Of a stretch of DNA of 48,996 nt, positions 26,874 through 48,996 are shown in pieces (the stretch's first letter is position 1; each line of letters starts with the position of its first letter). A program made the translations under genes and the position numbers. The DNA comes from Gammaproteobacteria bacterium (lineage in GTDB: Bacteria > Pseudomonadota > Gammaproteobacteria > Pseudomonadales > Pseudohongiellaceae), in the NCBI GenBank assembly GCA_030682575.1, contig JAUXNX010000022.1:1-48996 (forward strand). The letters are read 5' to 3'. The notes beneath the pieces were generated by a model. The model was not told where the DNA came from and did not search any database. It saw only the letters and a list, made by a program, of their open reading frames with translations.

Positions 26874-26984
26874 CTTCGATCGGCGGCGGGCAGCAGGGGC
26901 CGGTTCTGCGGCTGACCTGCTCCGCTCCGCGGGGCCCTCTCTCCGCAAGAGGGCACAGGCAACAGACCGGGATGCCGATCAAAG
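26874..26984 (+). repeat. Dispersed palindromic element, core-less subtype, copy A
   Basis: It lies in the 202-bp convergent gap between 26843 and 27046. The outer ends CTTCGATCGGC (26874-26884) and GCCGATCAAAG (26974-26984) are near-perfect inverse complements. The interior carries the family block GCTCCGCGG, but the central GCAAAAAG...CTTTTTGC hairpin found in the full elements is missing. Its reverse complement aligns along its full length with copy D at 46943-47053. Confidence 0.75.
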
Positions 26985-27045
26985 AAGGTGTGACTCAACC
27001 AAGAGCCCGATATATCGATGACAACAGAAGCACTATCAGCGCCTT

Positions 27046-29301
27046 TCAATCATCGCCAAGCGCCATACGTACCTTGTTTGCCAACTCGCTGCGCTGATAG
27101 GGTTTGTTGAGCAGGTGCACTCCGGGGTCCAGGCGCCCCTGATGAACAATGGCGTTCTCGGTATAACCGGACATGAACAGCACCTTCAACTGTGGCCTTG
27201 CCTGCACCGCTGCCTCGGCAAGCTGACGTCCGTTCAAACCTCCGGGCATGATCATGTCGGTCAGCAGCAGATCCAGAGGACGACTGCTTCGTATGATTTC
27301 AAGTCCCTCATTGCCGTTGTTCGCAACGACCACGTCATACCCCAGACCCTGCAGAAGTCTGGCGGTGTATTCGCGCACAAGCTCATCGTCTTCGACAAGC
27401 AGAATACTTTCGCTGCCGCCTGCAAGCGCGGCAACATTTGCGTCGATAGTCAGTGGCACACCATCACATTGCGGTAAATACATGTTGATGGTCGTGCCCT
27501 GTCCAAGCTCGGAGTACAGACTGATGTGGCCATGGGATTGCTTCACGAATCCATAGGCCATACTGAGACCCAGCCCGCTGCCCTGGCCCTGCGGCTTGGT
27601 AGTGAAGAACGGATCGAAAACCCTGGGCAGAACATCGGGGGCAATCCCGGTGCCGGTGTCGGACACCGACAGCATCACGTACATGCCGGGCACCACGTCG
27701 GTGTGCGCGGCAGCATACTCCTCATCAAGGCAGCGCGTTCCGGTCTCGATGGTGAGTCTGCCACCCTCAAGCATCGCATCGCGGGCGTTGACGCAAAGGT
27801 TCAACAACACTGCCTCCAACTGCACAGGGTCCACCAGCGCCTGCACCGAGCCATCGTGGATCAGACGGATATCGATATCCTCCTGCAGTGTTCGTCGCAG
27901 CAGACTCTCCATGCTGGTAACCAACGCACGGATATCAGTGATCTGTGGCTCCAGCGCCTGCCGTCTGGCGAAGGCCAGCAGCCGACGCGTCAACTCCGCG
28001 CCTCGGCCTGCGGCCTCTCGAATCATGGTGGCCAGTGGCTGTAGAGCTTCATTCTTCTCAAGATCTTCTTCCAGCAGTTCTGCGTTGCCGAGAATCACCG
28101 TGAGCAGATTGTTGAAGTCATGAGCCACACCTCCGGTCAACTGCCCAATGGCCCCCAGGTACTGTGACTGTCGCAGGCGATCCTGCATGGCGAGTTGCGA
28201 GGTAACATCGCGGAAATACACCGCCAGCCCCTCACCTGAAGGATAGGCTCGTACCTCGAAAGTTTTTTGCAGGGGTTGGTACTCGGCGGTGAATTCCTGT
28301 GTGATCTGTTCTGCGACGGCCTTGCGGTAATGCTTTTCGAAAACGTCCGCGCCAGGGTATTCCGCCCATATAATGCGACCAAGCAGATTCTCCCGCTTTA
28401 CTCCCAGCAACTCCTCGGCTTTCGCGTTGATATAGGTAAGGCGCCAGTTCTGATCGAGCGTGATGAAGGCATCGGTGATGCTCTCCAGCGTATTGATGAG
28501 ACGATTGGCAAGGCGCCGGGCATCCTGCAACAGCAGGCGCTGATCGTGGACGTCAATCGTGGCGCCATACCACTTCAGAACATTGCCACGCCGGTCGCGG
28601 ATTGGCCTGGCCTGGCTGAGATGCCAGCGGTATACCCCATCCTTGTTCAGCAGGCGATACTCCTGCGTGTAGTTCGTCGCTGTCTGGTTGGCGACACGCC
28701 AGGCTGCAGACACCATGCTCATGTCTGCAGGATGAATGGCCGCGCGCCAGCGCTCTGCCGGCGTCATATCATCACCAGAAGTGGTACCCGTGTAGTCGGT
28801 GAATGCGCGGCTGGTGAAGTCAGTGGTACCTCTGCTGTCTGCACTCCAGACAATCAGGGGCATACTGTCAGCCAACTGGTTGAAGCTCTCCCGGCTTTCC
28901 ACCAGCGCCTCATCCTTGCTTCGCTCCTCAGTTATATCTGTGATGTAGCCTTGCAGCACCGAAGTGCCTTTCTCCTCTGTGCGCACTGCCTCGCCTTGCT
29001 CCCACACCCATTTGATGGTGCCATCACGGGCCACCATTCTATAGGTACAGCGGAACGGACGACGCCCCCGCACGGCATCACGCACCTCCTTCTCGACCAT
29101 AGTACGATCGTCAGGATAAATAAGGGAGGCGTAGGAGACCTTGGCGTTGTTGAGCAGATCGTCAGGAGAATAGCCGGTAAGCGACTTGCATCCGGCGCTC
29201 ACGAACAGCATGGTCCACGCCTCGTCGTTGCGACAGCGATAGACCATGCCCGGAACATGTTTCAGCAGTAGCTGCTGATCTAAAGGAGTGTTGCGATCCA
29301 C
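27046..29301 (-). CDS. PAS-domain hybrid sensor histidine kinase (751 aa)
   Basis: A cytoplasmic multi-PAS hybrid kinase. Three PAS/PAC units span about residues 8-130, 135-260 and 265-375. The dimerisation/phosphoacceptor domain has His395 in GGVAHDFNNLL. A HATPase domain follows, with N-box NLCVNARDAM, DTGTGI and GQGSGLGLS. A C-terminal receiver (about 630-751) has Asp682 in LLLTDMIMPGG and the conserved KP in LNKPYQ. No transmembrane helix is visible. The start is a GTG (29301) with a weak ribosome-binding site; the next Met, at residue 19, would cut into the first PAS. No cognate response regulator is adjacent, so it is an orphan hybrid and its output is unknown. Confidence 0.93.
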   Translation of the reverse strand: MDRNTPLDQQLLLKHVPGMVYRCRNDEAWTMLFVSAGCKSLTGYSPDDLLNNAKVSYASLIYPDDRTMVEKEVRDAVRGRRPFRCTYRMVARDGTIKWVWEQGEAVRTEEKGTSVLQGYITDITEERSKDEALVESRESFNQLADSMPLIVWSADSRGTTDFTSRAFTDYTGTTSGDDMTPAERWRAAIHPADMSMVSAAWRVANQTATNYTQEYRLLNKDGVYRWHLSQARPIRDRRGNVLKWYGATIDVHDQRLLLQDARRLANRLINTLESITDAFITLDQNWRLTYINAKAEELLGVKRENLLGRIIWAEYPGADVFEKHYRKAVAEQITQEFTAEYQPLQKTFEVRAYPSGEGLAVYFRDVTSQLAMQDRLRQSQYLGAIGQLTGGVAHDFNNLLTVILGNAELLEEDLEKNEALQPLATMIREAAGRGAELTRRLLAFARRQALEPQITDIRALVTSMESLLRRTLQEDIDIRLIHDGSVQALVDPVQLEAVLLNLCVNARDAMLEGGRLTIETGTRCLDEEYAAAHTDVVPGMYVMLSVSDTGTGIAPDVLPRVFDPFFTTKPQGQGSGLGLSMAYGFVKQSHGHISLYSELGQGTTINMYLPQCDGVPLTIDANVAALAGGSESILLVEDDELVREYTARLLQGLGYDVVVANNGNEGLEIIRSSRPLDLLLTDMIMPGGLNGRQLAEAAVQARPQLKVLFMSGYTENAIVHQGRLDPGVHLLNKPYQRSELANKVRMALGDD

Positions 29302-29699
29302 ATTAAAGGACTCTTCATCTGCCCATGGCAGGGGCGACTGTCCACCACCAGGGGCATGTGCATTGTAGACTACCTGTCAAGCCGACCTTGCAGCCTGCTG
29401 GCCTTTACAAAACCTTCTATTTGCGACCTTTGCTCCGTGAGAAGAAAACGTGACTGCTCAATAAAACACTGCGAGGAGATTACCTCAGATCAACACTACA
29501 CGGTAGCCTTGCCAAAGGAGTTACCGGTCAGTTCAGGACATAATGCCAATCAGCGCGATGACCCGAAAAGTAGCCCGATGACGCCATATCTGATAAAAGC
29601 TCTCTGGGGAAACTGCAGGGCATTGTTTGGCGGTTTCTCAAGAAAAGTATTGCTGGGCATGTTCGGCAGAAAACATTCAACAGAATCAGGGTACAACGC
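29302..29699. other. Intergenic region between divergent sensor kinase and HupE-like gene
   Basis: 398 bases between divergent genes. It must contain two promoters. I see no convincing -35/-10 pair, no recognisable riboswitch, no repeat-family copy and no supportable small gene. Confidence 0.5.
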
Positions 29700-30476
29700 A
29701 TGTGGAAGCTTTATAAGCACACCGGAAACGCGGCATTGACTGCCTTGCTGCTTGGCAACAGTGGCGCCGCCATAGCTCACGATGTGTCGGAAGTAGCACG
29801 CGACCGCATGCAGAACGGCGGCATACTCGACTATATCTGGACCGGCGCGGAACACATGCTGACAGGCTATGACCATCTGTTGTTCCTGCTTGGCGTGATG
29901 TTCTTCCTGACCCGCTTCATCGACATTCTGAAATTTGTCACTGCTTTCACCATCGGCCACACCATCACACTGGTGTTCGCCACTTATGCAGGCATCAGCG
30001 CGGATCACTATCTGATCGACGCAGTGATTGCCGTAACCGTGATGTACAAGGGCTTCGAGAACCTGGACGGATTCCGGCGCTGGGTTGGTACTGCAGCCCC
30101 CAATCTCATCTACATGGTCTTCATCTTCGGTCTGATTCATGGCTTCGGTCTCTCGGCGCGGCTGCAGGACCTGACCATGACGGAGGAAAGCGGACTGCTG
30201 GCAAAAATCCTGTTCTTCAATCTCGGTGTGGAATTCGGTCAGATTGCTGCGCTGGTCGTCATGGGCGTCGTCATACGCGCCTGGCAGCAGACCACTGCCT
30301 GGGAGCCGATCACCCGAATCGTCAATGCCAGCCTGATCTTCTTCGGCTTCCTGCTCCTGCTGTTCCAGCTACACGGCTATCTGCACGAGAGTGGCCATGT
30401 GCATGGCCCTGCCACCATGGACGCAGCGACGGGAGTTCCTCACAGTCACGATGGAGGGCCGCTGCATGTTCACTAG
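29700..30476 (+). CDS. HupE/UreJ-family membrane protein with His-rich C terminus (258 aa)
   Basis: A predicted polytopic inner-membrane protein of the HupE/UreJ type, a family linked to nickel or cobalt uptake. An N-terminal signal-like helix ending IAHD is followed by GAEHMLTGYDHLLFLLGVM, then FTIGHTITL and LIHGFGLSARLQ, matching the family's conserved His/Asp membrane motifs. About six further helices follow. The C terminus is histidine-rich (HGYLHESGHVHGP and PHSHDGGPLHVH), as expected for metal buffering. No urease or hydrogenase gene is nearby, so a stand-alone metal permease is more likely than an accessory for those enzymes. The following gene's ATG overlaps this stop. The ribosome-binding site is weak (CAGGG). 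Confidence 0.9.
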   Translation: MWKLYKHTGNAALTALLLGNSGAAIAHDVSEVARDRMQNGGILDYIWTGAEHMLTGYDHLLFLLGVMFFLTRFIDILKFVTAFTIGHTITLVFATYAGISADHYLIDAVIAVTVMYKGFENLDGFRRWVGTAAPNLIYMVFIFGLIHGFGLSARLQDLTMTEESGLLAKILFFNLGVEFGQIAALVVMGVVIRAWQQTTAWEPITRIVNASLIFFGFLLLLFQLHGYLHESGHVHGPATMDAATGVPHSHDGGPLHVH

Positions 30477-30894
30477 GGCACTGGTTATCAAGACTCTGGT
30501 GGGGTGTCTGCTGGCGCTGTTCTACGGCTTTGTCAGCGCACAGGAAATGCAGATCGAGCTTCTTGCAGACGGGCCATTGATCATTGGTGTGGTGAGCAAT
30601 GCGGACGGCTCGCCTGTGGCAGAAACTGCCGTGCAGATTGCGCTCGTGTCACAGCCACAAACTTCTGTCGCTACTCTACAGACAGACGCTGTCGGCATCT
30701 TCACGTACACAGGAAATGACAACACCAGTTACCGCATCACCGTGGGCAACACAGTGGTGGACATCACCTCCGGTGCTGCACCGCCAGAACCCTTCACTTG
30801 GCCGCCAATCTACGTCACCCTCGGCATCCTGATGCTGCTCTCGCTAATTCCAGCGCGAATTCTGCGCAGGAAAGAGCCACAGCACAAAGAATAG
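30466..30894 (+). CDS. Small exported membrane-anchored protein, partner of HupE-like gene (142 aa)
   Basis: The ATG at 30466 overlaps the HupE-like stop by 11 bases. A signal peptide (ALVIKTLVGCLLALFYGFVSA) precedes about 75 residues that look like a small beta-sandwich of the carboxypeptidase-regulatory/Ig-like kind (DGPLIIGVVSNADGSPVAETAVQIAL, then TDAVGIFTYTG). A C-terminal membrane helix (about residues 112-130) ends with RRKEPQHKE. This suggests a periplasmic domain anchored next to the HupE-like permease, perhaps handing metal over or gating it. That role is inference; the family is not named with certainty. It is convergent with the DUF5916 gene, 23 bases away. Confidence 0.8.
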   Translation: MFTRALVIKTLVGCLLALFYGFVSAQEMQIELLADGPLIIGVVSNADGSPVAETAVQIALVSQPQTSVATLQTDAVGIFTYTGNDNTSYRITVGNTVVDITSGAAPPEPFTWPPIYVTLGILMLLSLIPARILRRKEPQHKE

Positions 30895-30917
30895 ATCGGC
30901 ATGCAACGTGATACCGA

Positions 30918-33161
30918 TCACGGCTGCCACGCATAGCTGAACTTGGCGAAGATCGTGCGATTGCTGGTCTCGATGGAATTCAGACTGTCATTCTGGAAAC
31001 CAGCATCCGAATAGCCGATGAAGAACAGCGTCTGCGGCGTCAGCTTGTAGCTGTAAAGCAACTGTGTAGTCAATTCCTTCGACTGACTCTGCACCGGATT
31101 GATATACAGCGCCCTGTCTCTCTCATTATCACTGTATTGCACGATAAATCGCAGAAAGCTGCGCACATTGAACTGATAGGTGGCGCGAAGATTTACCAGG
31201 TTGGCGGTGAACAAGCGCCCGCCTTTCACATCAAAGGTTTGATGAGTGTATTGCAGATTCATCTGCAGATGCTGACCCATCTGGTAGTTCACGGTAGGAG
31301 AGTAGCGCTTCGATTCGCCAAGACGGGTATTGGCAAAGTCCACGATGTCTTCGATGCGCACCAGCATCTGCAGAAAAAGCTCGCTGTTCGGGCGTGCTGA
31401 CACCGAGAGCTGGTTGAACTGCTCATCGAAATAGAAGCCGTTGTAGTATGTTTTGCTACCTCCGAACAGACCGTTGATCTGCGACTGCAGCGGACCGTTC
31501 ATCTCCAGAAACACCTCAAACTCTTCCTCCAACTCCAGCCCCGCCTGATCGTGAGTATTGTCCCAGTCCAGCGCAACCCGAATGCGATCAAAGAAGGTGC
31601 CTGCCTCGTAGCGCCAGGTGTGTCCGACTCTCAAAGTGTTGCGTGTGTAATCCACGCGATTGATGAAACCGAGGTCGGCACGGAAGTCCTTGCCAAAGTC
31701 GACGTGCTCGGCCCACACGTCCCAGCGGCGATCGTTGTGACGATACTCTATCAAGTACGTCTCATCACTGATGCTGTCGTCCTGCCGGTAGCGCGTCTGG
31801 ATCGCCAGCGGATAGTCCGACTGTGAACGCAGTACCTGCAGATTGATGACATCGCTGCCACTGAGGCGCCAGCGTGCGTCTGCACCTGCCACTGTGTTCG
31901 AGTAGCCGTCGCCATTGCGATGCGTCAATACAGTACCGATACTGGAATTGGTGAGCACTTCCTGCCGGTAACGCAGGATCGACACGTCACTGTCGGACTG
32001 ACCAAGGGAGGCCACCGATGAGCTGTCATTGGTGGGAATCATGAAGCTCGTGCTGGTGTCGTTGGCCTGCAGCAGACCATAGGAGTGCCGGCCACTCTTG
32101 CCGGTGAGTTTCACTCCGTAATCGGGGTCTGCGATATTGCGCGTGTGCACGATGTTGAGCTGGCTGTTGAAGTAGTCAGCGCCATCCAGGAAGAACGTGC
32201 GCTTCTCCGGAAAGAACAGAGAAAAAGTATTATTGATTTCCAACTGCGCACTGTCAGCCTCCACCTGAGAGAAGTCCGGATTCAGGGTAGCATTCAGATA
32301 AGTGTCCTGATTGATTCCCCAGCGCAGGTCCACACCCGCATCCGGATCAGTCTCGGTGCTGCTCCAGGAATCGAGGGCGGGATTGGGTCGCCTCTGTGCC
32401 GCCGATGCAGTGAGCGTTGGAATGATCTCCAGATTGCGCCCCGGCACAACGTTTGCGAAGCCACTGGCCTTGCGAAACTGACAGACGGTGCAGGAAATAT
32501 TGCGATCCTGCTCCGAGTCCGTGAAGCGGTAACGTCGATCACGCGGATAGTCACGAATGAATTTCACGCCCCAGATCTTTTCCCCGGCACCGCCCTCGAA
32601 ACGCAACTGCTTGAACGGAATCGCCATTTCGGTCATGTAACCGGTGGCGGTGAGGCTGCCCTCGCTGTCCCACAGCGCGTTCCAGGATTCGTCATAGCTG
32701 CCACTAAGGTCGTCAGTAGCTGCGTCAAACTGCACACCCAGGGGTGTGGTGATGAATTCGAAGGAGCGGGCTTCGTCATTGAACGTGTCCAGCAGCACAC
32801 CCACGTAGTCACCACCGCCAATGGAATCACGGTCGCGATAAAACGTGCGGATCTGTTCCGGGTTCGGGTCTGTGGCGATGAAGGCAACGTAGAGGTACTC
32901 GCCATCTTCCATGATGAAGGCCTCGGTCTGCACACTGGCCGGAATGTTGTCCGAAGGCGAGGTTTCCAGCCCCAACACTACACGGGTGGCCTGACCCCAT
33001 TCAGCACTGCCCACTTCTCCGTCGATGACCGGAGCCACGCTGATGCGAGGAATATGAAAATCAACAGTTGATCCGGGCTGGGCATGGACAGACTGAACTG
33101 GCAGGAACGGCAGAAACAGCGCAACGGCAAACAGCAGCGCGCGACAGGTCGATTGTGGCAT
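30918..33161 (-). CDS. DUF5916-type outer-membrane protein with CBM9-like domain (747 aa)
   Basis: A signal peptide ends near VHAQP. The N-terminal domain (about residues 35-205) has the CBM9-like features IDGEVGSAEWGQAT, EYLYVAFIATDP and AIPFKQLRF. The remaining 540 residues resemble the DUF5916 beta-barrel, with NPDFSQVEADSAQLEINN and FFPEKRTFFLDGADYF, a segment typical of the family. It ends in strands closing with FSYAWQP. The family is found in the envelopes of Gram-negative bacteria, sometimes near peptidases or TonB receptors, and its function is not established. Neighbouring minus-strand genes are two exported cupins, separated by short gaps. It may be the last gene of that group. Confidence 0.9.
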   Translation of the reverse strand: MPQSTCRALLFAVALFLPFLPVQSVHAQPGSTVDFHIPRISVAPVIDGEVGSAEWGQATRVVLGLETSPSDNIPASVQTEAFIMEDGEYLYVAFIATDPNPEQIRTFYRDRDSIGGGDYVGVLLDTFNDEARSFEFITTPLGVQFDAATDDLSGSYDESWNALWDSEGSLTATGYMTEMAIPFKQLRFEGGAGEKIWGVKFIRDYPRDRRYRFTDSEQDRNISCTVCQFRKASGFANVVPGRNLEIIPTLTASAAQRRPNPALDSWSSTETDPDAGVDLRWGINQDTYLNATLNPDFSQVEADSAQLEINNTFSLFFPEKRTFFLDGADYFNSQLNIVHTRNIADPDYGVKLTGKSGRHSYGLLQANDTSTSFMIPTNDSSSVASLGQSDSDVSILRYRQEVLTNSSIGTVLTHRNGDGYSNTVAGADARWRLSGSDVINLQVLRSQSDYPLAIQTRYRQDDSISDETYLIEYRHNDRRWDVWAEHVDFGKDFRADLGFINRVDYTRNTLRVGHTWRYEAGTFFDRIRVALDWDNTHDQAGLELEEEFEVFLEMNGPLQSQINGLFGGSKTYYNGFYFDEQFNQLSVSARPNSELFLQMLVRIEDIVDFANTRLGESKRYSPTVNYQMGQHLQMNLQYTHQTFDVKGGRLFTANLVNLRATYQFNVRSFLRFIVQYSDNERDRALYINPVQSQSKELTTQLLYSYKLTPQTLFFIGYSDAGFQNDSLNSIETSNRTIFAKFSYAWQP

Positions 33162-33209
33162 GGGGCGGGTATCTCTCTTTATGAATTGTTGTAGTGTGTG
33201 AGTGTGATT

Positions 33210-33704
33210 CTATTCCACAGGGACATTGAACCGCACTTCTAGATAGGTAATCGCCCCCTCCACTGCCGTGTAGTGGTGTGGAGTCCCTTCTGGAATCAGT
33301 ATCGCATCGCCCTTTTCGACGCGCTGCGATACGGCATTCCGGGTCGTTGCCGGTCCGCCATCGGCAGGACGATTGACCGTGCCGCCAGTGGTGAGAATAC
33401 CTGCGCCTTCCACGATGAAGTGCAACTCTGTGCCCGGTCTATGCACGATGGCTCCGTGGGCCTCGGTGCGGGTGATGAGGTTGATGCGGTAATGGTCACT
33501 CGTGGTAATCAGCGAAGCGCCCATGGCGGGCCGTTCAGCAAGAGAACTCTGCAAAGCGGCGGCAATATCGGTGCCTTTCATGTATAGCGCCGGGGCGACA
33601 GGTGGGGTCTGGGCGCTGACACCAATGACCACGAGGAGGCCCAGGGTCAATATGGTCAGGGGTTTCACGAACAGGAAGAATACGGAGAGTGTGCGTTTGA
33701 ACAT
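33210..33704 (-). CDS. Exported cupin protein (164 aa)
   Basis: A small secreted or membrane-anchored cupin. The N-terminal hydrophobic segment (LTILTLGLLVVIGVSAQ, about residues 16-32) acts as a signal. The cupin fold (about 60-160) shows GAIVHRPGTELHFIVEGAGIL and a second motif GDAILIPEGTPHHYTAV; the His and Glu residues fit a metal site. An AAGGA lies upstream of the ATG. It lies 48 bases before the DUF5916 gene and 120 after a second exported cupin of similar size, all minus strand. Function (isomerase, dioxygenase or binding) cannot be told from sequence. Confidence 0.82.
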   Translation of the reverse strand: MFKRTLSVFFLFVKPLTILTLGLLVVIGVSAQTPPVAPALYMKGTDIAAALQSSLAERPAMGASLITTSDHYRINLITRTEAHGAIVHRPGTELHFIVEGAGILTTGGTVNRPADGGPATTRNAVSQRVEKGDAILIPEGTPHHYTAVEGAITYLEVRFNVPVE

Positions 33705-33824
33705 GGTAGACGTCCTTCCCGCCTCGCGGGTTTATTGTTGTTTTGCCGCAATATACGGGGCAGCGGATGGCAAGTCCACGCCCCTCGAATTGGGCGGGCT
33801 GCATTTTCTGCAATAAAGGGAGGA

Positions 33825-34352
33825 TTATCTTTCGGCTTGCAGCCCCTCCGGGTCCGGCCTGAAGATGAGATAGCGGATGTCAGAGTCCAGACTGCTCCAC
33901 CAGTGCGGCACATTTGGCGGAATGAGCACAACGTCCCCCGGCATGATCCTGCGGGACACTCCTCCCTCAATGCGCGGCCCCCGGTAATTGGCGCGATTGG
34001 TATTGGGGCTGAGACCTGAACTGACTTCCTCGGCGATCACTCCCCCCGTCACCAACGTCGCAGTACCCTCCAGCATGTAATAGATTTCCGTCACACTGGT
34101 GTCATGGCGGATCGCATCACCTGGCAGTGCTTGTGGACGAAACACGCCATACACGCCCGCCTTGCCATTACCGACATTGACGACCCGGATGGGCCTGTCG
34201 CTGATCGCATCCTTCGGCAGCGCGTCGATGAAGGCCTTGATGTCGGCTGCAGTGACATCCACTGCCGGCAGCGTGGATTGAGCTGCAACCGGGAACGCAT
34301 ACATGCTGATCGTAAAAAGTAGTGTCAATGAGGGCAATACCTGGTATCGCAT
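33825..34352 (-). CDS. Exported cupin protein, second copy (175 aa)
   Basis: A signal peptide (LTLLFTISMYAFPVAAQS) precedes a cupin domain with HDTSVTEIYYMLEGTATLVTGG and GDVVLIPPNVPHWWSSL, giving the usual His/Glu metal-binding pattern. AGGAGA precedes the ATG. It resembles the next gene downstream in size, export signal and motif order, so the two probably come from duplication, though they are well diverged. Both sit between an outer-membrane barrel gene and the DUF5916 gene. No substrate can be proposed. Confidence 0.82.
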   Translation of the reverse strand: MRYQVLPSLTLLFTISMYAFPVAAQSTLPAVDVTAADIKAFIDALPKDAISDRPIRVVNVGNGKAGVYGVFRPQALPGDAIRHDTSVTEIYYMLEGTATLVTGGVIAEEVSSGLSPNTNRANYRGPRIEGGVSRRIMPGDVVLIPPNVPHWWSSLDSDIRYLIFRPDPEGLQAER

Positions 34353-34434
34353 GAGAATTTCTCCTGATCATTGTTATTGTTCGGGCATGTCTGATTGCGA
34401 TGACATGTGCAGCGATAATAGCAGGACCCAAATG

Positions 34435-34483
34435 CAAAGAGGTCGGAGAATGAACGCATTTGCGTCTCTCTCCGACCTCTTTG
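34435..34483 (-). terminator. Hairpin terminator of the small beta-barrel gene
   Basis: A perfect 15-bp stem, CAAAGAGGTCGGAGA (34435-34449) with its complement at 34469-34483, has a further ACGC/GCGT stem in the loop. It lies 24 bases past the stop of the 34507-35169 gene. The minus-strand tail is T-poor (TTTGCATTTGGG), so efficiency is uncertain. Confidence 0.65.
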
Positions 34484-34506
34484 TTCAATCAGCTCCTACC
34501 GTGGGA

Positions 34507-40474: not shown

Positions 40475-40490
40475 TTTTGTAACTAAGAAA

Positions 40491-40526: not shown

Positions 40527-40544
40527 GCTCACAGATTGGTGTTG

Positions 40545-40693
40545 CTTCGATCGGTGGTGGGAGGCAGGGCCCGGTCCTGCGGCTGACCCGCGCCGCTCCG
40601 CGGTGCCCTCTCTCCGCAAAAAGCCCAAGGTCTTTTTGCTGCGTTCGGCGCTGGTCTTTTATGCCGCTGAACCGGGCCCTGCCTCCCACCACC
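40545..40693 (+). repeat. Dispersed palindromic element, full subtype, copy B
   Basis: Perfect 23-bp outer arms (40553-40575 with 40671-40693, GGTGGTGGGAGG... ) enclose a conserved interior: GCGCCGCTCCGCGGTGCC (40590-40607) and the core GCAAAAAG CCCAAGGT CTTTTTGC (40616-40639). It is in the opposite orientation to copy C at 40892. The pair flanks a 198-bp segment in the 660-bp gap between convergent gene ends; no gene is supported in the gap. Confidence 0.85.
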
Positions 40694-40891
40694 TTGTAAA
40701 ACTCTTGACGACTGGATGTGCAGATTCTAAAGGCTGCCACTCGTCTTTGCTCACAGAGATATCTGCCACCTCGTTCAGTGACACACGGGGGATCTTACGC
40801 AAATGAAAGGCCCACGGAGACATACTACGAGTGACCATGCCCCACTTTTGACTATTTAGTTTGTTCGTGCGTTGCACTTGCAGCACGCCAG

Positions 40892-41023
40892 GGGCTATTG
40901 CCTGTGCCCGCCAGCGACAATCAGGGCCGCGCCGAGCGCAGCAAAAAGACCTTGGGCTTTTTGCGGAGGGAGGGCACCGCGGAGCGGCGCGAGACCGTCG
41001 CAGGTGGGCACAGGCAATAGCCC
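40892..41023 (-). repeat. Dispersed palindromic element, full subtype, copy C
   Basis: Perfect 18-bp outer arms GGGCTATTGCCTGTGCCC (40892-40909) and its complement (41006-41023) differ in sequence from those of copy B. The core reads GCAAAAAG ACCTTGGG CTTTTTGC (40941-40964), the inverse complement of copy B's, and GGCACCGCGGAGCGGCGC lies at about 40973-40990. Confidence 0.85.
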
Positions 41024-41049
41024 GGGATACCTGAAAGAATAGTCAGCAA

Positions 41050-41105: not shown

Positions 41106-41134
41106 TTCACTACCCGACTTCAGTAGCGATCAGG

Positions 41135-44035
41135 TCATGCACCTGGCTGCCAATCGAGTGACAGCCAGACCTGACGGCCCCACGGTGTTGACAGACGAGA
41201 CTCGAAGCCACCGATGATCGGCAGACGCTGCGGCCTGATGTCAAACAGGTTGCTCACACCACCACTCAGAGTGATCGTGCTGTCGAAGTACTGATCAAAA
41301 GTGTACGAGTACTGAGCATTGGTAATGGTTTCGGCGTCGATCTTGCGATCTGCCATTGCCAGCCAGCCATCGCCGTAACGGTCTACGGGACGATCATCGA
41401 ACACTACACCACTGCGATAGTTCGCAGACAAACTGCCACTGTGGTTGCCCTTGTACCAGCCCAGACGCAGACTGCCTTTGATATCGGGCAGCGGTGGCAC
41501 GATACCGGTCTGTGCATTCTGCATGCCCAGCGCATCGATCAACACACCAGTGTTGTCCTCATACTCGTAGTTCAGGTAGTAGGACGCCTCCAACGTGGTG
41601 GTGAAAGTACCCCAATTGCCTGCATCGTAGATGTAGCGGGCTTTCGCATCCAGCAGATCGATGTACACGGACGCGATGTTCTGCGCCTGCCTGAAGATGG
41701 TATCCACAGACATGTCTGCCGGATCACGCAGTACCGGATTGCCAGGACCGGCGATGCTACGCAGATAGGCCGTAGCCGCTGCACGATCCGTCGCGTTGGC
41801 CGGGTTGTAGGTGGCCTCAGTGCGGCCAGTCGCCTGCAAGAACTCGCGGAACTGGTCATACACGGTATCCGTATCATCAAGCGTACGAATACGATCCACA
41901 TAGCTCACGCTCTGATAATCCATGCTGATGCTCAGATTATCGATACCTTCATAGGTGAAACCGAAGTTCTTGATGGTTGAAGTTTCCGGTGCCAGATTGG
42001 GGTTACCCGCCTGGCAAGTGGATGAACCGATCAAAGACGCATTGAAGAACGGGTCGTTGCCTGAGAACGCTTCACCGCACAGCTCGTTGGGAATAAAGGG
42101 ACGAGCCTGTTCAGGTGTTGGTGCCAGGAAGCTCTTGCCCCATGACGCACGCAGTGCCAGACCATCCATCGCTTCCCAGCGCAGCGCCACCTTCGGAGTG
42201 GTGGATTCCAGACCGAAGTCGGTGAACTGCTCATGACGCACCGCACCCTGTGCTGTCAGGCTTTCAAGGATAGGCACTTCCATCTCGAGGAATACCGCAC
42301 GCACCTGGCTGACGTATTCGGCGTCCTTGCGCACCGGTGTGGTGATGTCCACGTTATAGTTGTTGCCGATCGCGGAAAGCGGGTGTGCAAAATCCTGCAC
42401 AAGTGTGTCACGCCACTGGTAACCGGTTGCCATGGAGACTGCACCAGCAGGCAGGTCAAACAGCTCACCGGTGATCGTAACTTCGGCGATGTCGAGGTAA
42501 TCGCGATCCGTTGTCAGACTGATGTCGTCCCACATCCAGGCCATGATCTCTGGGCTGTTGTCCGTTTTGCCCTTCACGTACAGGGGCGAGCGCGGATCAG
42601 CAGAGCCGAAGGGGTTGAACCACAGATCGTTGTTGACACCGCCCTTGCCCATCAAGGCCTGTTGCAGCTTCTTCAGGTTCATGTTGTTACGCATAGCGCG
42701 CGACCAGGCCTTGCTCTCCTGACGTGAGTAGTAGGCATAACCTGTCCACGTCTCACTGAGATCAAAGCGCGCCCCCAGCTTCATGCGGTTGGAACTGGTA
42801 TCTGTACCGCCCTTTGTTTCACCGAATTCGCTGATCCAATCTGGCATGGTGCCAAGGCCGGCCGCCGGGCGCCACAGATAGGGCACAACGTCAAAGCCGA
42901 AAGTGTTGGCTGGGTGGCTGGCGGGTATATAGAGTACCGTGCGATTGTTGGGATTGAGCGCCGTGACCACACCCCTGGTACCTGCGTCCAGCAGGTAGTT
43001 CCAGTTGCCGGTGGCCTCGAGCTGCAGCCAGTCGGTCGCTTCCCAGGTGACGTTCTGGTACAGATTGTATTCGGTCATCGCACGCGCGTAAGGATACGTC
43101 GTGGTGTAGTTGTACCAACAGGTTCTGTTGTTGCCTGTGCCGGTGATGATGCCGCTGGGGATGCTGCCGCGCTTGGTGCGATCCTCCAGTCCCTGGTTGA
43201 ACGTGCCGCAACTTGGGTCTGGCAGGTTGCCACCGGAGAGCGTGCCGCCATGCTGGCCGCCCAGCACCGGATTGGCGTTGTTGATGCGACGATAGGTCCC
43301 GGGGTTACCCGAACCGGAGGAGCCGTCTGCCATCTCCCACTCACGAGGACGCTCGTACATACCCAGATGCGAGCGCTTTCTGGCATCGAAGGCACCAACA
43401 TAATTGACTCCGTTGGTGAAACTCTTTCCCCACAGAAGCGACAGGTTGCCCTCTTCCATGCCACCCTCTTCTGGCGTCTGGTAGTAAGCACGTACGCGGA
43501 CACCATCAAATCGTTTGATGGGGATCATGTTGACCACACCCGCGACCGCATCGGAACCGTAAAGGGCCGAACCGCCGTCCAGAACCACTTCAACGCGCGC
43601 GATGGCAATATCGGGAATCAACGCTGTCACGGAGTTATCGATGCTGCGCACACCATCCATCATGGTCAGTGTGCTGTTCTCTCCAAGCCCCCGCAGGTTG
43701 AACGTAGTACCAACGCCACTCTGTCCACCGGAAGCGGTGGCCAGCACGTTCTGCACGGTATTGGTGTTCTGTGTGAAACTCAGGTCACGAATGTAATTCG
43801 CCATACTCGGCGCACCAGATTGATACAAATCATCCTGGCTTATAGTCGCTACGGGGGAATTCTGAGCGAATGCACTGTTGCGAATATAGGAACCAGTGAC
43901 TACTACTTCCTCGACCTCAGGGGCATTGTTGGCCTGTGCCATTAAAACAGCAGGTGTACTCAGTGTCATCGCGATACCGAGTCTGATCATGTTGCGCAAA
44001 TAATGCTTCTTGCTACCTTTGTGGGGGTATGACAT
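41135..44035 (-). CDS. TonB-dependent receptor, fourth member of the 1-7441 family (966 aa)
   Basis: The ATG at 44035 (MSYPHKGSKKHYLRNMIRL) is chosen because CGGAGAG precedes it; an in-frame start 78 bases upstream lacks support. The signal peptide ends VLMAQANN. It is followed by VEEVVVTGSYIRNSAFAQN, DGGSALYGSDAVAGVVN and a barrel ending WLSLDWQPGA. It is a close paralogue of the tandem receptors at 1-7441 but 34 kb away, with a different signal peptide and leader. Cysteine pairs are conserved: CGTFNQG with TCWYNY, and CGEAFSG with TCQAGNPNL. Its substrate is unknown. It suggests a multi-copy, divergently regulated receptor family. Confidence 0.95.
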   Translation of the reverse strand: MSYPHKGSKKHYLRNMIRLGIAMTLSTPAVLMAQANNAPEVEEVVVTGSYIRNSAFAQNSPVATISQDDLYQSGAPSMANYIRDLSFTQNTNTVQNVLATASGGQSGVGTTFNLRGLGENSTLTMMDGVRSIDNSVTALIPDIAIARVEVVLDGGSALYGSDAVAGVVNMIPIKRFDGVRVRAYYQTPEEGGMEEGNLSLLWGKSFTNGVNYVGAFDARKRSHLGMYERPREWEMADGSSGSGNPGTYRRINNANPVLGGQHGGTLSGGNLPDPSCGTFNQGLEDRTKRGSIPSGIITGTGNNRTCWYNYTTTYPYARAMTEYNLYQNVTWEATDWLQLEATGNWNYLLDAGTRGVVTALNPNNRTVLYIPASHPANTFGFDVVPYLWRPAAGLGTMPDWISEFGETKGGTDTSSNRMKLGARFDLSETWTGYAYYSRQESKAWSRAMRNNMNLKKLQQALMGKGGVNNDLWFNPFGSADPRSPLYVKGKTDNSPEIMAWMWDDISLTTDRDYLDIAEVTITGELFDLPAGAVSMATGYQWRDTLVQDFAHPLSAIGNNYNVDITTPVRKDAEYVSQVRAVFLEMEVPILESLTAQGAVRHEQFTDFGLESTTPKVALRWEAMDGLALRASWGKSFLAPTPEQARPFIPNELCGEAFSGNDPFFNASLIGSSTCQAGNPNLAPETSTIKNFGFTYEGIDNLSISMDYQSVSYVDRIRTLDDTDTVYDQFREFLQATGRTEATYNPANATDRAAATAYLRSIAGPGNPVLRDPADMSVDTIFRQAQNIASVYIDLLDAKARYIYDAGNWGTFTTTLEASYYLNYEYEDNTGVLIDALGMQNAQTGIVPPLPDIKGSLRLGWYKGNHSGSLSANYRSGVVFDDRPVDRYGDGWLAMADRKIDAETITNAQYSYTFDQYFDSTITLSGGVSNLFDIRPQRLPIIGGFESRLSTPWGRQVWLSLDWQPGA

Positions 44036-44591
44036 TACTTCTCTCCGTTGTGTTACTTCGTTGTAGTTTTTGTCGAACGGCTGATACCTTGTAAATCTCT
44101 CCCTTGGTATCACGATCAGATGGGTCCATCCAAAATCCTAGACCACCCTCCTTCTTGCAGAGCGAACCTTGATTTCATCAAAACATGAATATGCGCCAGG
44201 CGAAGTTTTCCCAGGGGAATATGGTGCAGGGCTGAGCTCAAAGCTATGGCGATGCCAGTAAGCACTCATGAATGAAGAAGACGAAAGGCCTGATTTCGAA
44301 GAAACCAGAGCGCCTTCTTGGGGAAAAAGCATTGATAAGTACCTAATGTATTTTTTTAGTAGGGCCGATTCTCTCTATTATAAGAAGTCAGGTCAACCCT
44401 AAAAACTTTCATTAAATCAGTAAAAGTTCGCCAGGATGACACACCAAGAGGAATACATGCATTAATCTGAACGCTCGCTATATTCCAGGCTCGATTTACA
44501 GTAAGGGGCAGGGCACACTATTAATGGTGCCAGGGTGACACGTGAATTCAGGGCTGCGAAATTTCCATGAGCGCTCGCTCATGACAGATAT
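44036..44591. other. Gene-free intergenic region upstream of the fourth TBDR
   Basis: 556 bases with no supportable gene and no copy of the palindromic family. The start-proximal part must hold the TBDR promoter; no copy of the 17-mer found upstream of TBDR genes 1 and 2 is seen. Two small features are visible: a direct repeat-like GGTGCCAGGGTGACACG and CATGAGCG-CT-CGCTCATG near 44567-44584, an 8-bp perfect inverted repeat just past the heptosyltransferase stop. It lacks a T tract, so it is not a clear terminator. Confidence 0.4.
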
Positions 44592-45668
44592 TCACGACAT
44601 GGACAGGATTGATTGCGATGTCGCCTGCAGCATTGCATGGACCTCCACCATAACAACTTCCGGCGTGATCTCGCGCATGCAGGCGTGGTGCCCTAGCGGG
44701 CAGATTTTCTTGTGACAAGGTACACAGGGCAGATCGCGCTGCAGCACCCTGGTCTTTTCCAGATTGGCATTCGTGTACTGCGCGTTGGTAGGCCCCATCA
44801 GTACAATGTGCGGCACATCAAAGGCCGCTGCATAGTGACGGGGTCCGGTGTCATTCGTCACCAGCAGATCGCAACGCTTGATCAGGGGTTTCAAATCGGC
44901 AAGATCGACTCGCTCCGTGCCAGTATTGATGATGCTGGCACAACTGGCGTCAACAATTTTCTGTGCAATACCTTCTTCGCCGGGACCGACCAGCAGCAGT
45001 ATCCTGCAATGCAGGCTTTCCTGCAGCATCTCGGCAAGGCGGGCGAAATATTCTGCAGGCCAGCACTTGGAGGAACCGAAGCTGGCGCCAGGATTCAGCC
45101 CGATCACCATGTCTTCATCTCTCACACCCCAATTACGCAAACGTGCCAACCCTCTCTCATTATTGACGTCCGATAAATGCAGTTTCCCGCGCGGCTGCAA
45201 GGGCAGGACAAGACCGAGATAGCGACACAATTCCAGATAGTATTCCTGCATCGGGAGAGGTTTGTATTTTCCCCCTTCGCGCTGCGGTTCCGGCCCATCC
45301 GTCAGGAAATATTTGCGCAGATTGCGACGATATCCGTAGATATTCGGCACCCCCGCGAACTTGAAACTGAGAAAAGAGTGAGTGGTATTGGTCAGCAGCA
45401 ACCCGGCATCGGGTTTGAGCGGCTGCAGGGCCGCACGCAAGTGACGCAGCCCCTGCAAACTCTTGTCCTGACAGGGAACGATATGATCAAACCACGGAGC
45501 ATCCTGTAGTATCCCGCGCGCGTAGGGGCGTATGCATGCAGTAATAGTGGCATTGGGGAAGTTGTTGCGCAGACATTCAAACACCGGCGTCGCCATGACG
45601 ATATCGCCGACCCAGTTGGGGCAGCGCACCACCAGACTCTTCACGGATTGCAGTGCAGGAAGCATCAT
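44592..45668 (-). CDS. waaF: LPS heptosyltransferase II (GT9 family, 358 aa)
   Basis: A cytoplasmic-face enzyme adding the second L-glycero-D-manno-heptose from ADP-heptose to the LPS inner core. The N-terminal NWVGDIVMATPVFECLR is the RfaF hallmark. Downstream VIGLNPGASFGSSKCWPAEYFARLAE and LVTNDTGPRHYAAA form the nucleotide-sugar site, and the C-terminal CVPCHKKICPLGHHACM cysteine/His cluster is typical. The ATG at 45668, preceded by CAGG, is preferred over an upstream TTG at 45686. It stands alone; other core-biosynthesis genes are outside the window. Divergent from the dienelactone hydrolase gene. Confidence 0.92.
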   Translation of the reverse strand: MMLPALQSVKSLVVRCPNWVGDIVMATPVFECLRNNFPNATITACIRPYARGILQDAPWFDHIVPCQDKSLQGLRHLRAALQPLKPDAGLLLTNTTHSFLSFKFAGVPNIYGYRRNLRKYFLTDGPEPQREGGKYKPLPMQEYYLELCRYLGLVLPLQPRGKLHLSDVNNERGLARLRNWGVRDEDMVIGLNPGASFGSSKCWPAEYFARLAEMLQESLHCRILLLVGPGEEGIAQKIVDASCASIINTGTERVDLADLKPLIKRCDLLVTNDTGPRHYAAAFDVPHIVLMGPTNAQYTNANLEKTRVLQRDLPCVPCHKKICPLGHHACMREITPEVVMVEVHAMLQATSQSILSMS

Positions 45669-45993
45669 CAAGGCCTGATCAGACAACGGAAATTGAAAGT
45701 GCCGGAAGCATAAAATCTATGCCAATGGATGTCCATGACTCATATTCATGTTCTCAGTCAAGACTGGCAAAATGGTCAGGTGCAGAATCGATCCAAGGGT
45801 GGGCTGGACGAAGATTCTGGAGAGGTCGGCTGCAGCACATGAAGGATGAGTGAGGGAGCTGCATTTTCAACGTGCTTTTGTCTTCATCCATGCCATACAC
45901 TGCCCGCCTGATCCCCTCCTGATCGCCAGGAGAAGAAAACGCGCTTCACCCCGATATAACAATTCAAACCACATTCCCAGGAGAACAAGAACA
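45669..45993. other. Divergent intergenic region, waaF and dienelactone hydrolase
   Basis: 325 bases between divergent genes. It must hold two promoters; the AGGAGA site for the dienelactone hydrolase is at its right end. No repeat copy, hairpin or small gene is convincing. Confidence 0.45.
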
Positions 45994-46872
45994 ATGTGCG
46001 ATAACCATACCAATGAAGAGAACGAACAGTATCTGAAGCTGGCCCGCAAGATGAACCGTCGCCAGTTCGGCAAGCTCACTGCCGGTGCCGCCATGATGGC
46101 CATGCTGCCTTCAGTCCTGCACGCGCAGGACGTGATGGAGATGGATGTCGAAATCCAGACGCCCGATGGCACCGCCGATTGCTACTTTGTCCACCCGACC
46201 TCTGGCGCCCATGCTGCCGTATTGATCTGGCCGGACATTCTCGGCCTGCGCCCTGCTTTCCGTGCCATGGGCAAGCGCATGGCGCAGTCAGGTTATTCCG
46301 TGCTGGTGGTGAATCCGTTCTACCGCAGCGCCAGGTCTCCCGTTGTAGGAGAGGGCGCGAGCTTCGCCGACCCCGCGATTGCCGCTATCGTGCGCCCGAT
46401 GGCAGGACAACTGAACGCCACCACGCACGTCACCGATGCGAATGCATTCGTCGCCTGGCTGGACCGACAGCCTTCCGTCGACACCAGCCGCAAGATTGGT
46501 ACCATGGGTTACTGCATGGGCGGGCCGATCGTCATGCGCACTGCATCTTCACTGCCGAATCGCATCGGTGCAGGCGGCTCATTCCACGGTGGCGGTTTGA
46601 ATACAGCGAATCCCGACAGCCCGCACCTGGGCATCCCCAGCATGGATGCGCATATGCTGATCGCGGTTGCGGCCAATGACGATGAGCGTGATCCGGAGTC
46701 CAAGAACGTGTTGAGGGCTGCGTTTGACGCGGCGGGTGTAGCGGCCGAAATTGAGGTTTACGAGGGGGCGATGCACGGTTGGTGCGTGCCGGATTCGGCA
46801 GTCTACAACGAGTCCCAGGCCGAACGAGCCTGGAGCCGCATGCTGGCGATCTTCGAGACTGCGTTGGCCTGA
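45994..46872 (+). CDS. Tat-exported dienelactone hydrolase family protein (292 aa)
   Basis: An alpha/beta hydrolase of the dienelactone hydrolase family. The N terminus contains the twin-arginine-like NRRQFGKLTAGAAMMAMLPSVLHAQ (residues 20-44), so export in folded form is expected. Nucleophile Cys174 sits in GTMGYCMGG, with Asp in AANDDERDPES and His in GAMHGWCVP, the Cys-Asp-His triad of the family. The ATG at 45994 is used because AGGAGA lies upstream and the Tat signal would otherwise be internal. Substrate could be a lactone or another ester; it is unassigned. It is followed by the palindromic element copy D. Confidence 0.87.
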   Translation: MCDNHTNEENEQYLKLARKMNRRQFGKLTAGAAMMAMLPSVLHAQDVMEMDVEIQTPDGTADCYFVHPTSGAHAAVLIWPDILGLRPAFRAMGKRMAQSGYSVLVVNPFYRSARSPVVGEGASFADPAIAAIVRPMAGQLNATTHVTDANAFVAWLDRQPSVDTSRKIGTMGYCMGGPIVMRTASSLPNRIGAGGSFHGGGLNTANPDSPHLGIPSMDAHMLIAVAANDDERDPESKNVLRAAFDAAGVAAEIEVYEGAMHGWCVPDSAVYNESQAERAWSRMLAIFETALA

Positions 46873-46942
46873 GTCCACGTCAATCAGACCTGCGAATGGC
46901 TCCTGTTAATCGAGACGCGGTCTGGAGCCCGTGCACCACTGC

Positions 46943-47053
46943 TCTCGATTGATAGCCCGGTCTGCTGCTTGTACCCACTTGCGACGAGTCGGCACCGCGG
47001 AGCGGCGCAGGTCAGCCCCAGAACCGGGCCCTGCCACCCGCCGCCGCTCGAAG
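46943..47053 (-). repeat. Dispersed palindromic element, core-less subtype, copy D
   Basis: It lies in the 464-bp gap 46873-47336. It aligns with the reverse complement of copy A (26874-26984) along its full length: GCCCGGTCTGCTGCTTGTACCC at the left, CACCGCGGAGCGGCGCAGGTCAG in the middle, and CGCCGCTCGAAG at the right. The central GCAAAAAG/CTTTTTGC hairpin is absent. Boundaries are approximate by a few bases. Confidence 0.7.
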
Positions 47054-47261
47054 CGGCTATCCAAATCACCCGGAATACCAACGAAGAGCCCGCCAGCCTG
47101 ACTGGTCTCTGCCTAATCGCCCGATCTGGCGTGGGACACAGACAGGCTGACGTGCTCCACATCTCTCAGCATGTTTCATACCAGCGCCACTGAAGTCACC
47201 AACCTCATGATTTGGAAGAATTAATTTCTCCCTCAATCAAAAGCGCCCATACAGTAACTGG

Positions 47262-47330
47262 TGAAAACCGCCACCAGGTGGCGAGGGATTGGAACAAGCT
47301 GCAAAGCAGCTTTGCTCCCACCCCGCGCTT
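47262..47330. repeat. REP-like hairpin segment upstream of SpmAB-like gene
   Basis: GCCACC-A-GGTGGC followed by AAGCTGC-AAA-GCAGCTT (47296-47312) and TTGCTCCCACC resembles REP-type intergenic repeats of gammaproteobacteria in layout. It overlaps a possible early start of the next gene, which argues for the ATG at 47337 instead. Only one copy is in this window, so repeat status is inferred from appearance. Confidence 0.35.
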
Positions 47331-47336
47331 ACGCAT

Positions 47337-48578
47337 ATGATTGCCGCCATGCTCAATATCCTCTGGCTCAGCTTCTTCTTCCTCGCCTTCATTGCCGCCC
47401 TCTGGCAATGGTTGTCAGGTACCAATCCCGAAGTGTTCAGCGAACTCGTCGCGGCTGCTTTCGAGATGGCCAATCTCAGCGTTGAGATCGCCATCGGATT
47501 GATAGGGCTGATGGCGCTGTGGCTCGGCCTGTTCCGCATTGCCGAGCATGGCGGCTTGATGGCTGTTGTCGCACGGGTGATGGCGCCTCTGTTCAGACGA
47601 TTGATGCCCGGCGTGCCCGAGAACCATCCGGCTCTTGGCTCTGTGACGATGAATCTGGCAGCCAATTTTCTCGGCCTCGACAACGCTGCCACCCCCATGG
47701 GCCTGAAGGCCATGAACGATCTGCAGGAGCTGAACCCGGACAAGGACACTGCCAGCAATGCCCAGATCCTGTTTCTCGTTCTCAACACATCCTCCGTCAC
47801 GCTGTTGCCCGTCACGATCTTCCTGTATCGCGCCCAGGCTGGAGCCACCTCTCCGGCCGATGTGTTTCTGCCTATCCTCATGGCCACTTCCGCGTCCACG
47901 CTGGTGGGTCTGGCCAGCGTCGCCTGGGTGCAGAAGCTGAAGCTGCTCGACCGCGTGGTAATGGCGTGGTTCCTGGGTTTCGCTCTGTTTCTGGCGGCAA
48001 CGCTGAGCTGGATCGTCAGCCTGCCTCCTGACCTGCTTTCCAGCCGCTCTGCCTTGATCGGCAACCTGCTGCTGTTCAGTGTGATCGTGCTGTTCCTGAT
48101 CTCCGGCGTGCAACGCAGACTCGACTGCTATTCGCTGTTTGTCGAAGGTGCGAAAGAAGGCTTCAATGTCGCCATCAAGATCATCCCCTTTTTGCTGGCG
48201 ATGCTGGTGGGCATAGGGGTGTTTCGCGCCAGTGGTTGTCTGGACATTCTGTTGTCCGGAATACGCGCGCTGGTCTCGGGACTTGGCATCGATACCGGGT
48301 TCGTTGAGGCGTTGCCCACGGCATTCATGAAACCGCTGAGCGGAAGCGGAGCCCGCGCCATGATGCTGGAAACGATCAACACCTATGGAGTTGATTCCTT
48401 TGTTGGACGGATCGCGGCGACGGTGCAGGGCAGTACCGAGACGACCTTCTATGTGCTGGCGGTGTACTTCGGCAGCGTAGGCATCCGCAAGACCCGCCAT
48501 GCGATCACCTGCGGCCTGCTCGCTGATGTTGCAGGAATTACCACCGCTATCCTCGCCTGCTACTGGTTCTTTGGCTGA
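47337..48578 (+). CDS. SpmA-SpmB-like nucleoside-recognition membrane protein (413 aa)
   Basis: A polytopic membrane protein resembling fused spore-maturation proteins SpmA and SpmB (Gate/nucleoside-recognition domain). Two similar halves are visible: the first with HPALGSVTMNLAANFLGLDNAATPMGLKAM (about residues 98-127), the second with GAKEGFNVAIKIIPFLLAMLVGIGVFRASG (about 281-310) and KPLSGSGARAMML. About eight to ten hydrophobic segments are present. Despite the name, such genes are common in non-sporulating proteobacteria, with no settled function. Start 47337 or 47349 is ambiguous; both ATGs are in frame. No operon partner follows before the repeats at 48619. Confidence 0.85.
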   Translation: MIAAMLNILWLSFFFLAFIAALWQWLSGTNPEVFSELVAAAFEMANLSVEIAIGLIGLMALWLGLFRIAEHGGLMAVVARVMAPLFRRLMPGVPENHPALGSVTMNLAANFLGLDNAATPMGLKAMNDLQELNPDKDTASNAQILFLVLNTSSVTLLPVTIFLYRAQAGATSPADVFLPILMATSASTLVGLASVAWVQKLKLLDRVVMAWFLGFALFLAATLSWIVSLPPDLLSSRSALIGNLLLFSVIVLFLISGVQRRLDCYSLFVEGAKEGFNVAIKIIPFLLAMLVGIGVFRASGCLDILLSGIRALVSGLGIDTGFVEALPTAFMKPLSGSGARAMMLETINTYGVDSFVGRIAATVQGSTETTFYVLAVYFGSVGIRKTRHAITCGLLADVAGITTAILACYWFFG

Positions 48579-48618
48579 TTCTTAGCGGAGATCCTCTTCG
48601 AGAGTTCTTTTCACAGAT

Positions 48619-48759
48619 CCCAGGGCTGCGGCCTGTGCCTGCATGCGACTGCCCTGCGCCGCTCCGCGGTGCCTTCCCTCCGCAAAAAGCCCAAGGTCTT
48701 TTTGCTGCGCTCAGCGCAGGGCTCTTATGTCGCCTGCAGGCACAGGCCACATCCCTTGG
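48619..48759 (+). repeat. Dispersed palindromic element, full subtype, copy E
   Basis: Outer arms GGCCTGTGCCTGCA (48630-48643) and its exact complement (48735-48748) extend outwards to about 25 bp with three mismatches. The interior holds GCGCCGCTCCGCGGTGCC and the core GCAAAAAG CCCAAGGT CTTTTTGC (48682-48705), in the same orientation as copy B. It lies just past the SpmAB-like stop. Confidence 0.82.
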
Positions 48760-48887
48760 CGTGCTGGAAGGACAACGATCCTTTCGAAAGACGACGTGGA
48801 CACCAGGTCCCGGAGTGAGGTTCGAAGAATGCGCCCTTCCCCGGGTTGGCACAATTCGAGGTGGTGGCTTGGGGCGGGGGTGGGGCA

Positions 48888-48996
48888 CTGCCGTTCAGCG
48901 GCATAAAAGACCTGCGCTGAGCGCAGCAAAAAGACCTTGGGCTTTTTGCGCAGAGAGGGCACCGCGGAGCGGCGCAGGTCAGCCGCAGAACGGCAG
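48888..48996 (-). repeat. Dispersed palindromic element, full subtype, copy F (may continue past the window)
   Basis: Arms CTGCCGTTCAGCGG (48888-48901) and CCGCAGAACGGCAG (48983-48996) pair with one mismatch. The core GCAAAAAG ACCTTGGG CTTTTTGC (48926-48949) is inverted relative to copy E, 128 bp away (48760-48887). The right edge coincides with the window end, so the arm may be longer. AGCGGCATAAAAGACC is shared, inverted, with copy B. Confidence 0.8.

Follow-up and report, generated by a model that had tools for sequence, protein, structure and literature searches.

A YPAL-like palindromic element with a branched core of its own, arranged in facing pairs in a genome of the Pseudohongiellaceae

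The window analyzed here, a stretch of 48,996 nucleotides (nt) from a gammaproteobacterium of the Pseudohongiellaceae (contig JAUXNX010000022.1, positions 1 to 48,996), contains a dispersed palindromic element of two subtypes, A and B, referred to below as A/B. The six copies listed in the original prediction (at 26874, 40545, 40892, 46943, 48619, and 48888) were all present in the sequence, and none of the six lay inside any gene in a simple gene model of the window. Four of them had been said to share a central block, and CCCAAGGTCTTTTTGC indeed occurred exactly four times, at 40624 (+), 40941 (−), 48690 (+), and 48926 (−). With up to 3 mismatches allowed, this block had 5 matches in the window against 0.40 expected, a number reached in 0 of 100 shuffles, and its recurrence is therefore not due to chance. 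The four block-bearing copies formed two convergent pairs, with covariance model matches at 40577 (+) and 40910 (−) and at 48643 (+) and 48894 (−).

The left member of pair 1 (40545 to 40740, + strand) was a complete subtype A copy consisting of a 5′ arm, a core at 40577 to 40671, a 3′ arm, and a tail (covariance model E value, 1.7e-26); folded as RNA, positions 40545 to 40692 of this single copy gave −94.7 kcal/mol (z −9.88 versus shuffles). Its partner (40875 to 41035, − strand; core, 40910 to 41003; E, 1.1e-22) and the left member of pair 2 (48610 to 48765, + strand; core, 48643 to 48737; E, 9.7e-24) were complete copies of subtype B. The right member of pair 2 (48860 to 48996, − strand; core, 48894 to 48988; E, 4.2e-26) was of subtype A, with its outer arm cut by the contig end. 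We read the two remaining copies as collapsed composites in which the left ends of the two subtypes have been joined. The copy at 26874 to 26998 (+ strand) would be an A left end fused to a B left end with most of the core lost (BLAST match of 26874 to 26948 to the A left half; weak model match at 26906 to 26982; E, 7.5e-5), and that at 46937 to 47063 (− strand) appears to be of the same make in the opposite orientation (BLAST match of 46979 to 47053 to the A left half; absent from the model matches listed).

The search of the genome and its relatives that had been suggested with the original prediction was carried out and found many more copies than the six in the window. BLAST with a 148-base copy gave 36 matches in the source genome, some of which were arm-to-arm matches of a single copy, and 26 matches were obtained with a covariance model of 95 positions and 28 pairs, for which 40 copies had been aligned. 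Six of 46 copies, truncated or chimeric, had been removed before the alignments (A1 and A2) were made; two more matches were without the 3′ motif. Among 115 near genomes, 19 had A/B matches: 10 of the 14 of the genus (the source genome counted), 8 of a sister genus, and one of another family. In an even draw of 390 genomes from the order, A/B matches were present in seven. Besides the source genome, these comprised two members of the sister genus and four genomes from three other families; in the latter four, the best covariance model E values ranged from 2.6e-8 to 4.4e-4, and the matches inspected had the same core motifs on arms of their own. An exact pattern was found in 18 stretches of the GTDB contig collection, 17 titled Gammaproteobacteria and one titled Hydrogenophaga sp. 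The distribution of A/B is thus patchy. Carriage by a phage, plasmid, or virus was considered and rejected, as searches with one A copy among 50,697 phage and 72,556 plasmid records gave no match and an exact A/B core pattern had none in IMG/VR (A/B sequences were the queries in both cases).

Each A/B copy consisted of a long stem capped by a conserved core of three hairpins. The interior had been described as asymmetric and directional; asymmetric it is, but the description was incomplete, as the interior is also a branched fold of which GCAAAAAG...CTTTTTGC is one hairpin. The fold comprised the outer arms, the pairings GCGGC/GCCGC and GACC/GGTC (the latter with a bulge on one side), hairpin 1 (GCGCCGC-TCC-GCGGTGC), hairpin 2 (GCAAAAAG-variable loop-CTTTTTGC), and hairpin 3 (GCGY-TCG-GCGC). 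In alignment A2, 96.5% of cells were paired, versus 92.7% in shuffles, and two-sided changes occurred at 9 of 28 pairs, versus a shuffled mean of 4.0; hairpin 3 varied on one side only. Pairing hairpin 1, by its 5′ strand, with the 3′ strand of hairpin 3 instead gave a nearly equal fit (96.4%). In an alignment that included the arms, two-sided changes were found at 20 of 36 predicted pairs, and wholesale replacement of the hairpin 2 stem, with its pairing kept, was seen in some relatives.

Elements of a second core class, built like A/B, are identified by sequence as YPAL (Yersinia palindromic sequence): up to 45 of 54 core positions agree with the RU-2/YPAL sequence given in a table of PMC2759123. 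Copies of this class scored up to 60 against the printed core (shuffled maximum, 22), whereas the A and B cores scored 17 and 16 (shuffled maxima, 22 and 20). One such element lies in the window outside the 26874-to-48996 range, at 23591 to 23752 (− strand), where a long inverted repeat with the YPAL motif has 29-nt arms of its own (31 of 41 identities to the printed core; score, 32; shuffled maximum, 23). An extra inserted hairpin was also seen within this palindrome. The YPAL motif was present in 45 of the 115 near genomes, including genomes of the genus without A/B, and at the valS and C14 loci, the intergenic regions occupied here by A/B contained YPAL-core elements in other species.

In the part of the literature consulted, YPAL is described as an intergenic palindrome of ~150 to 170 bp with terminal hairpins within longer arms, reported to be mobile from empty versus filled sites and to have target-site duplications of 3 to 26 bp (PMC2229807); these accounts describe it from Yersinia and Erwinia, with no known mover. 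A/B is likewise a long intergenic hairpin with internal inverted repeats, of about 150 to 170 bp, and the two co-occur in the same genomes. It differs from YPAL in its core, which is not homologous by sequence and has three hairpins and a one-sided bulge. The statement that no named element has this layout therefore failed for the layout, which YPAL has, and held for the core. No description of the A/B core was found in the literature by sequence or by topic, in a comparison to which the original YPAL paper did not belong.

Facing pairs were the rule in both classes. The A/B tally covered 155 places among the matches listed (source genome, near genomes, and order draw), in which 27 neighbors lay at most 700 bp apart; 25 of these were convergent, one was found in each tandem orientation, and none was divergent. 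The gap between the cores of convergent pairs was 144 to 345 bp. For YPAL, on contigs with several matches among those listed, 7 of 7 neighboring pairs were convergent outside one tandem array of six, and eleven YPAL loci of genome G038 comprised, by search pattern, six convergent pairs and five single cores. The array (L227, G113 contig 1) consisted of six YPAL-core elements placed head to tail with a period of ~227 bp.

Shortly 3′ of the 3′ arm, the hexamer GTGCCA was found in 25 of 106 A/B copies (shuffled mean, 1.2) and in 7 of 51 YPAL copies (shuffled, 0.4), both counts being inflated by related copies. This GTGCCA/TGGCAC tail motif may be a recognition site. In several G038 pairs, GTGCCA followed the 3′ arm and TGGCAC preceded the partner hairpin.

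Arm pairing was assessed in a set of 115 copies, taken from 138 matches of one search and one other, with repeats of overlapping loci removed by hand; the weak match L294:21-93 and two source-genome copies outside that search (L098 and L100) were left out. In the 106 copies measured, 2,419 of 2,717 arm pairs (89%) were Watson-Crick. The inner arms were highly diverse, with 96 distinct 14-nt sequences among 109 A/B copies. In G038, 11 YPAL cores had a mean identity of 95%, eight being identical over 48 nt, and carried arms of 26 to 31 nt whose inner parts were 49% identical, or 38% without the four core-adjacent bases (shuffled, 32%; maximum, 36%). Two of these arm pairs matched perfectly over 30 bases.

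Three possible sources of the arms were considered. Capture from elsewhere was sought for 11 copies of genome G010 and gave no clear extra source in 0.99 Mb (~29%) of that genome, a weak result, as the count includes the copies themselves and relatives of the common arm. Derivation from target DNA was judged by eye at five empty sites between G038 and G116, which were without arm sequence in surroundings where the genes are just 71 to 85% identical. Insertion of a core into the loop of a pre-existing long hairpin was rejected, since few naked long hairpins were present in 1.04 Mb (the window and parts of G010): the 61 long inverted repeats found there were labeled by script as 8 A/B, 2 YPAL, and 51 other, and by eye the 51 were mostly classic REPINs (described below), with two A/B copies missed by the pattern and one YPAL variant.

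Mismatches in the arms were biased by strand. On the strand with the TCC loop of hairpin 1, A-C exceeded G-T mismatches in A/B (98 versus 37 distinct contexts; P = 1.5e-7), in YPAL in the same strand sense (65 versus 36; P = 0.005; one of 52 copies unused), and in a partly overlapping set of further YPAL copies (31 versus 10; P = 0.0015); the copies are related and the counts hence not independent. The excess suits a folded GGA-loop strand, RNA or single-stranded DNA (ssDNA), that tolerates G-U, or a strand-biased mutation. Hairpin 1 contained an invariant G-T pair (40 of 40 copies), which points to the other strand, opposite to the signal of the arms.

These observations bear on the possibility, raised in the original prediction as a small structured RNA, that A/B is a structured RNA gene or a cis-acting RNA, with the GGA-loop strand transcribed outward from the spacer of the pair and the fold selected as a protein-binding or stability element. 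Covariation in the stems, the strand bias of the arms, and the retention of one B copy (at locus C29) across six genomes would all agree with this, but different arms on identical or near-identical cores are not readily produced by selection acting on a fixed RNA, the conserved G-T pair in hairpin 1 favors the opposite strand, and strand-biased deamination could yield the same arm bias in counts that come from related copies. Moreover, hairpins have been lost at orthologous sites (that of the C29 A copy in G010 and G008), and no Rfam family matched the window at gathering score. A more permissive Rfam search (E up to 1) of 17 additional loci gave below-gathering matches only. The RNA Ysr224 (Rfam RF02770) was weakly matched by the YPAL class (best E, 0.0056; 28.6 bits versus a gathering score of 70) and by none of the A/B copies in the window or at the A/B loci searched. 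We consider an RNA function possible, though less probable than not.

A comparison of orthologous regions provided evidence of presence and absence. At seven YPAL loci of G038, the pair was absent from G116 at five, including the regions between atpG and atpD (on the same strand) and between rpsJ and tuf (names by eye); of the other two, L381 was without a core but poorly aligned, and the comparison at L380 could not be resolved. For A/B, element-free relatives were found at the gap and valS loci, with 73 to 86% identity (3 of 12 fetched valS loci were left out). We propose that A/B is a new core class of YPAL-like, nonautonomous, mobile palindromes whose unit is most likely the facing pair, and we assign this reading a probability of roughly 55%. 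The unit of spread would most likely be the convergent hairpin pair, one strand of which would fold while single stranded, whether as RNA or as ssDNA at the replication fork. A putative enzyme would recognize the folded core in trans, and the unit would then be copied into intergenic DNA. The arms would be renewed at or after insertion, which is proposed because different but well-paired arms occur on cores that are identical or nearly so. Hairpins would later be deleted, as seen at the C29 locus in G010 and G008, or collapse to composites such as those at 26874 and 46943.

Several results weigh against this proposal. Empty sites were demonstrated for the YPAL class, whereas for A/B only divergent relatives could be compared; no target-site duplication was seen for A/B, whose element-free sites are too divergent to fix boundaries, and no mobilizing gene was found. 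The C29 B copy common to six genomes indicates that some A/B copies are old and vertically inherited, and one divergent A/B pair (L117) was found outside the 155-place tally. Further pair types in alignment A2 did not exceed those in shuffles (19 versus 18.5). As to the arms, the commonest 14-nt inner arm was common to five copies from two genomes, arms were less than 60% identical in only 6 of 31 A/B core pairs with cores at least 95% identical, the G038 arms were slightly more alike than shuffled arms, and 18 YPAL copies of genome G101 had imperfect arms in common at 92%. Arms are thus unlike on like cores in some sets and alike in G101, and amplification therefore sometimes carries the arms along and sometimes does not.

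Spread without special mobility was also considered. Ordinary hairpins, their arms matched by mutation bias (template switching within the hairpin), could be spread by gene conversion, and in some pairs both members did have the same core variant, such as the long loop of the C28 pair. This would leave unexplained the absent YPAL pairs, the patchy presence between genera, and the different arms on identical cores, and we find it very improbable.

The original prediction had further suggested a dispersed, directional, palindromic repeat, mobile or structural, like the repetitive extragenic palindromic (REP) sequences and bacterial interspersed mosaic elements (BIMEs), and as to kind this was borne out: the element is patchy in distribution, intergenic, and present in many copies, with empty sites for the YPAL class. 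In the part of PMC3116915 consulted, BIMEs and REP doublets forming hairpins (REPINs) are dispersed miniature palindromes, the inverted doublets forming hairpins. A/B is similarly dispersed, palindromic, and arranged in inverted pairs, features that would be expected if it were a REP/BIME/REPIN family moved by a REP-associated tyrosine (RAYT, or Y1) transposase. It differs in its branched core of ~95 nt, its variable arms, and its size, ~150 nt versus the 20- to 40-bp palindrome, with a GTAG or CGTC tag, that defines REP. The suggested link to a RAYT-type Y1 transposase gained no support: a scan of the source genome and the genus with Pfam PF01797 showed no association, and this candidate was rejected. 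The source genome had one Y1_Tnp gene, and the 3.3 kb examined on either side of and including this gene contained no CTCCGCGG in either orientation; across the genus, Y1 genes did not track the element, four genomes without the element having 2 to 4 of them and G002, with 24 matches in an assembly 86% complete, having none. Classic REPINs with the sequence TGTGGGAGCGGGC... exist separately in G010. A RAYT-moved family is accordingly very improbable. Many such classic REPINs (TGTGGGAGCGGGCCCTGCCCGCGAT), separate from the A/B element, were seen in G010 stretches L160 to L226.

The mapping to gene ends proposed with the original prediction was made in the source genome with a crude gene caller. 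Of the 26 matches, 25 were clear of called genes, and the single overlap is probably an artifact of an open frame that extends upstream beyond the start codon of a gap-like gene. Sixteen of the 24 copies with a called neighbor were oriented with the 5′ side facing a gene's 3′ end, and the hairpin formed by GCAAAAAG and CTTTTTGC resembles a terminator stem with a U tract, as a repeat serving as a bidirectional transcription terminator might. Some copies, however, are already preceded by an apparent intrinsic terminator (by eye), the C29 pair is found upstream of a gene resembling transketolase (identified by eye), one YPAL pair stood between the same-strand genes atpG and atpD (also named by eye), and the A/T tract has been lost from the stem of hairpin 2 in some relatives (L130 and L131). 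Termination is, in our judgment, the least credible of the explanations considered.

Within the preferred reading of A/B as a YPAL-like mobile palindrome, a more specific proposal can be made, tentatively and well short of an even chance: that a class of two-hairpin mobile elements surrounds a conserved core with a fresh palindromic arm of ~25 to 30 bp, during or shortly after each insertion, by foldback copying with one strand folded, and that the same machinery would serve YPAL and A/B as two independent cores. To our knowledge, foldback copying of this kind is known from no bacterial miniature element. Many related genomes contain the YPAL core together with a second core that is unrelated to it and shares its architecture, facing-pair rule, and variable arms, and the identical cores on different, well-paired arms can serve to separate target capture, foldback copying, and gradual coevolution. 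If arms do arise at insertion, this would be a new way to build palindromes in bacterial chromosomes.

Two A/B loci showed further features of the pair. At C17 (L161 and L099), the spacer of the source genome aligned with that of G010 better when flipped (142 versus 98.5; shuffled maxima, 73.5 and 68), and pair and spacer are seemingly inverted between the two genomes. In L126 (G013 contig 15, ~1500 to 2600), an extra stretch lay between the facing elements, bordered by an additional copy of tail and spacer. It contained an open frame whose product reads by eye as a helix-turn-helix plus membrane protein, as though the unit had captured a gene.

In our reading, the GGA strand of the YPAL core forms two hairpins with AYGGAY-like loops, a likeness to the TwoAYGGAY RNA motif. 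TwoAYGGAY had no Rfam match in the 17 loci searched at E up to 1. The part of PMC2864571 consulted lists it in human gut, gammaproteobacteria, and Clostridiales. Loops such as AUGGAU and AGGGAU were seen in YPAL hairpins on the GGA strand (e.g., in L227, L026, and L359 to L376). One of the sequences in L227, UACAGGGAUGUA, equals the high-affinity CsrA/RsmA site. By these loop sequences, the YPAL-core repeats could be candidate dispersed CsrA-binding sites.

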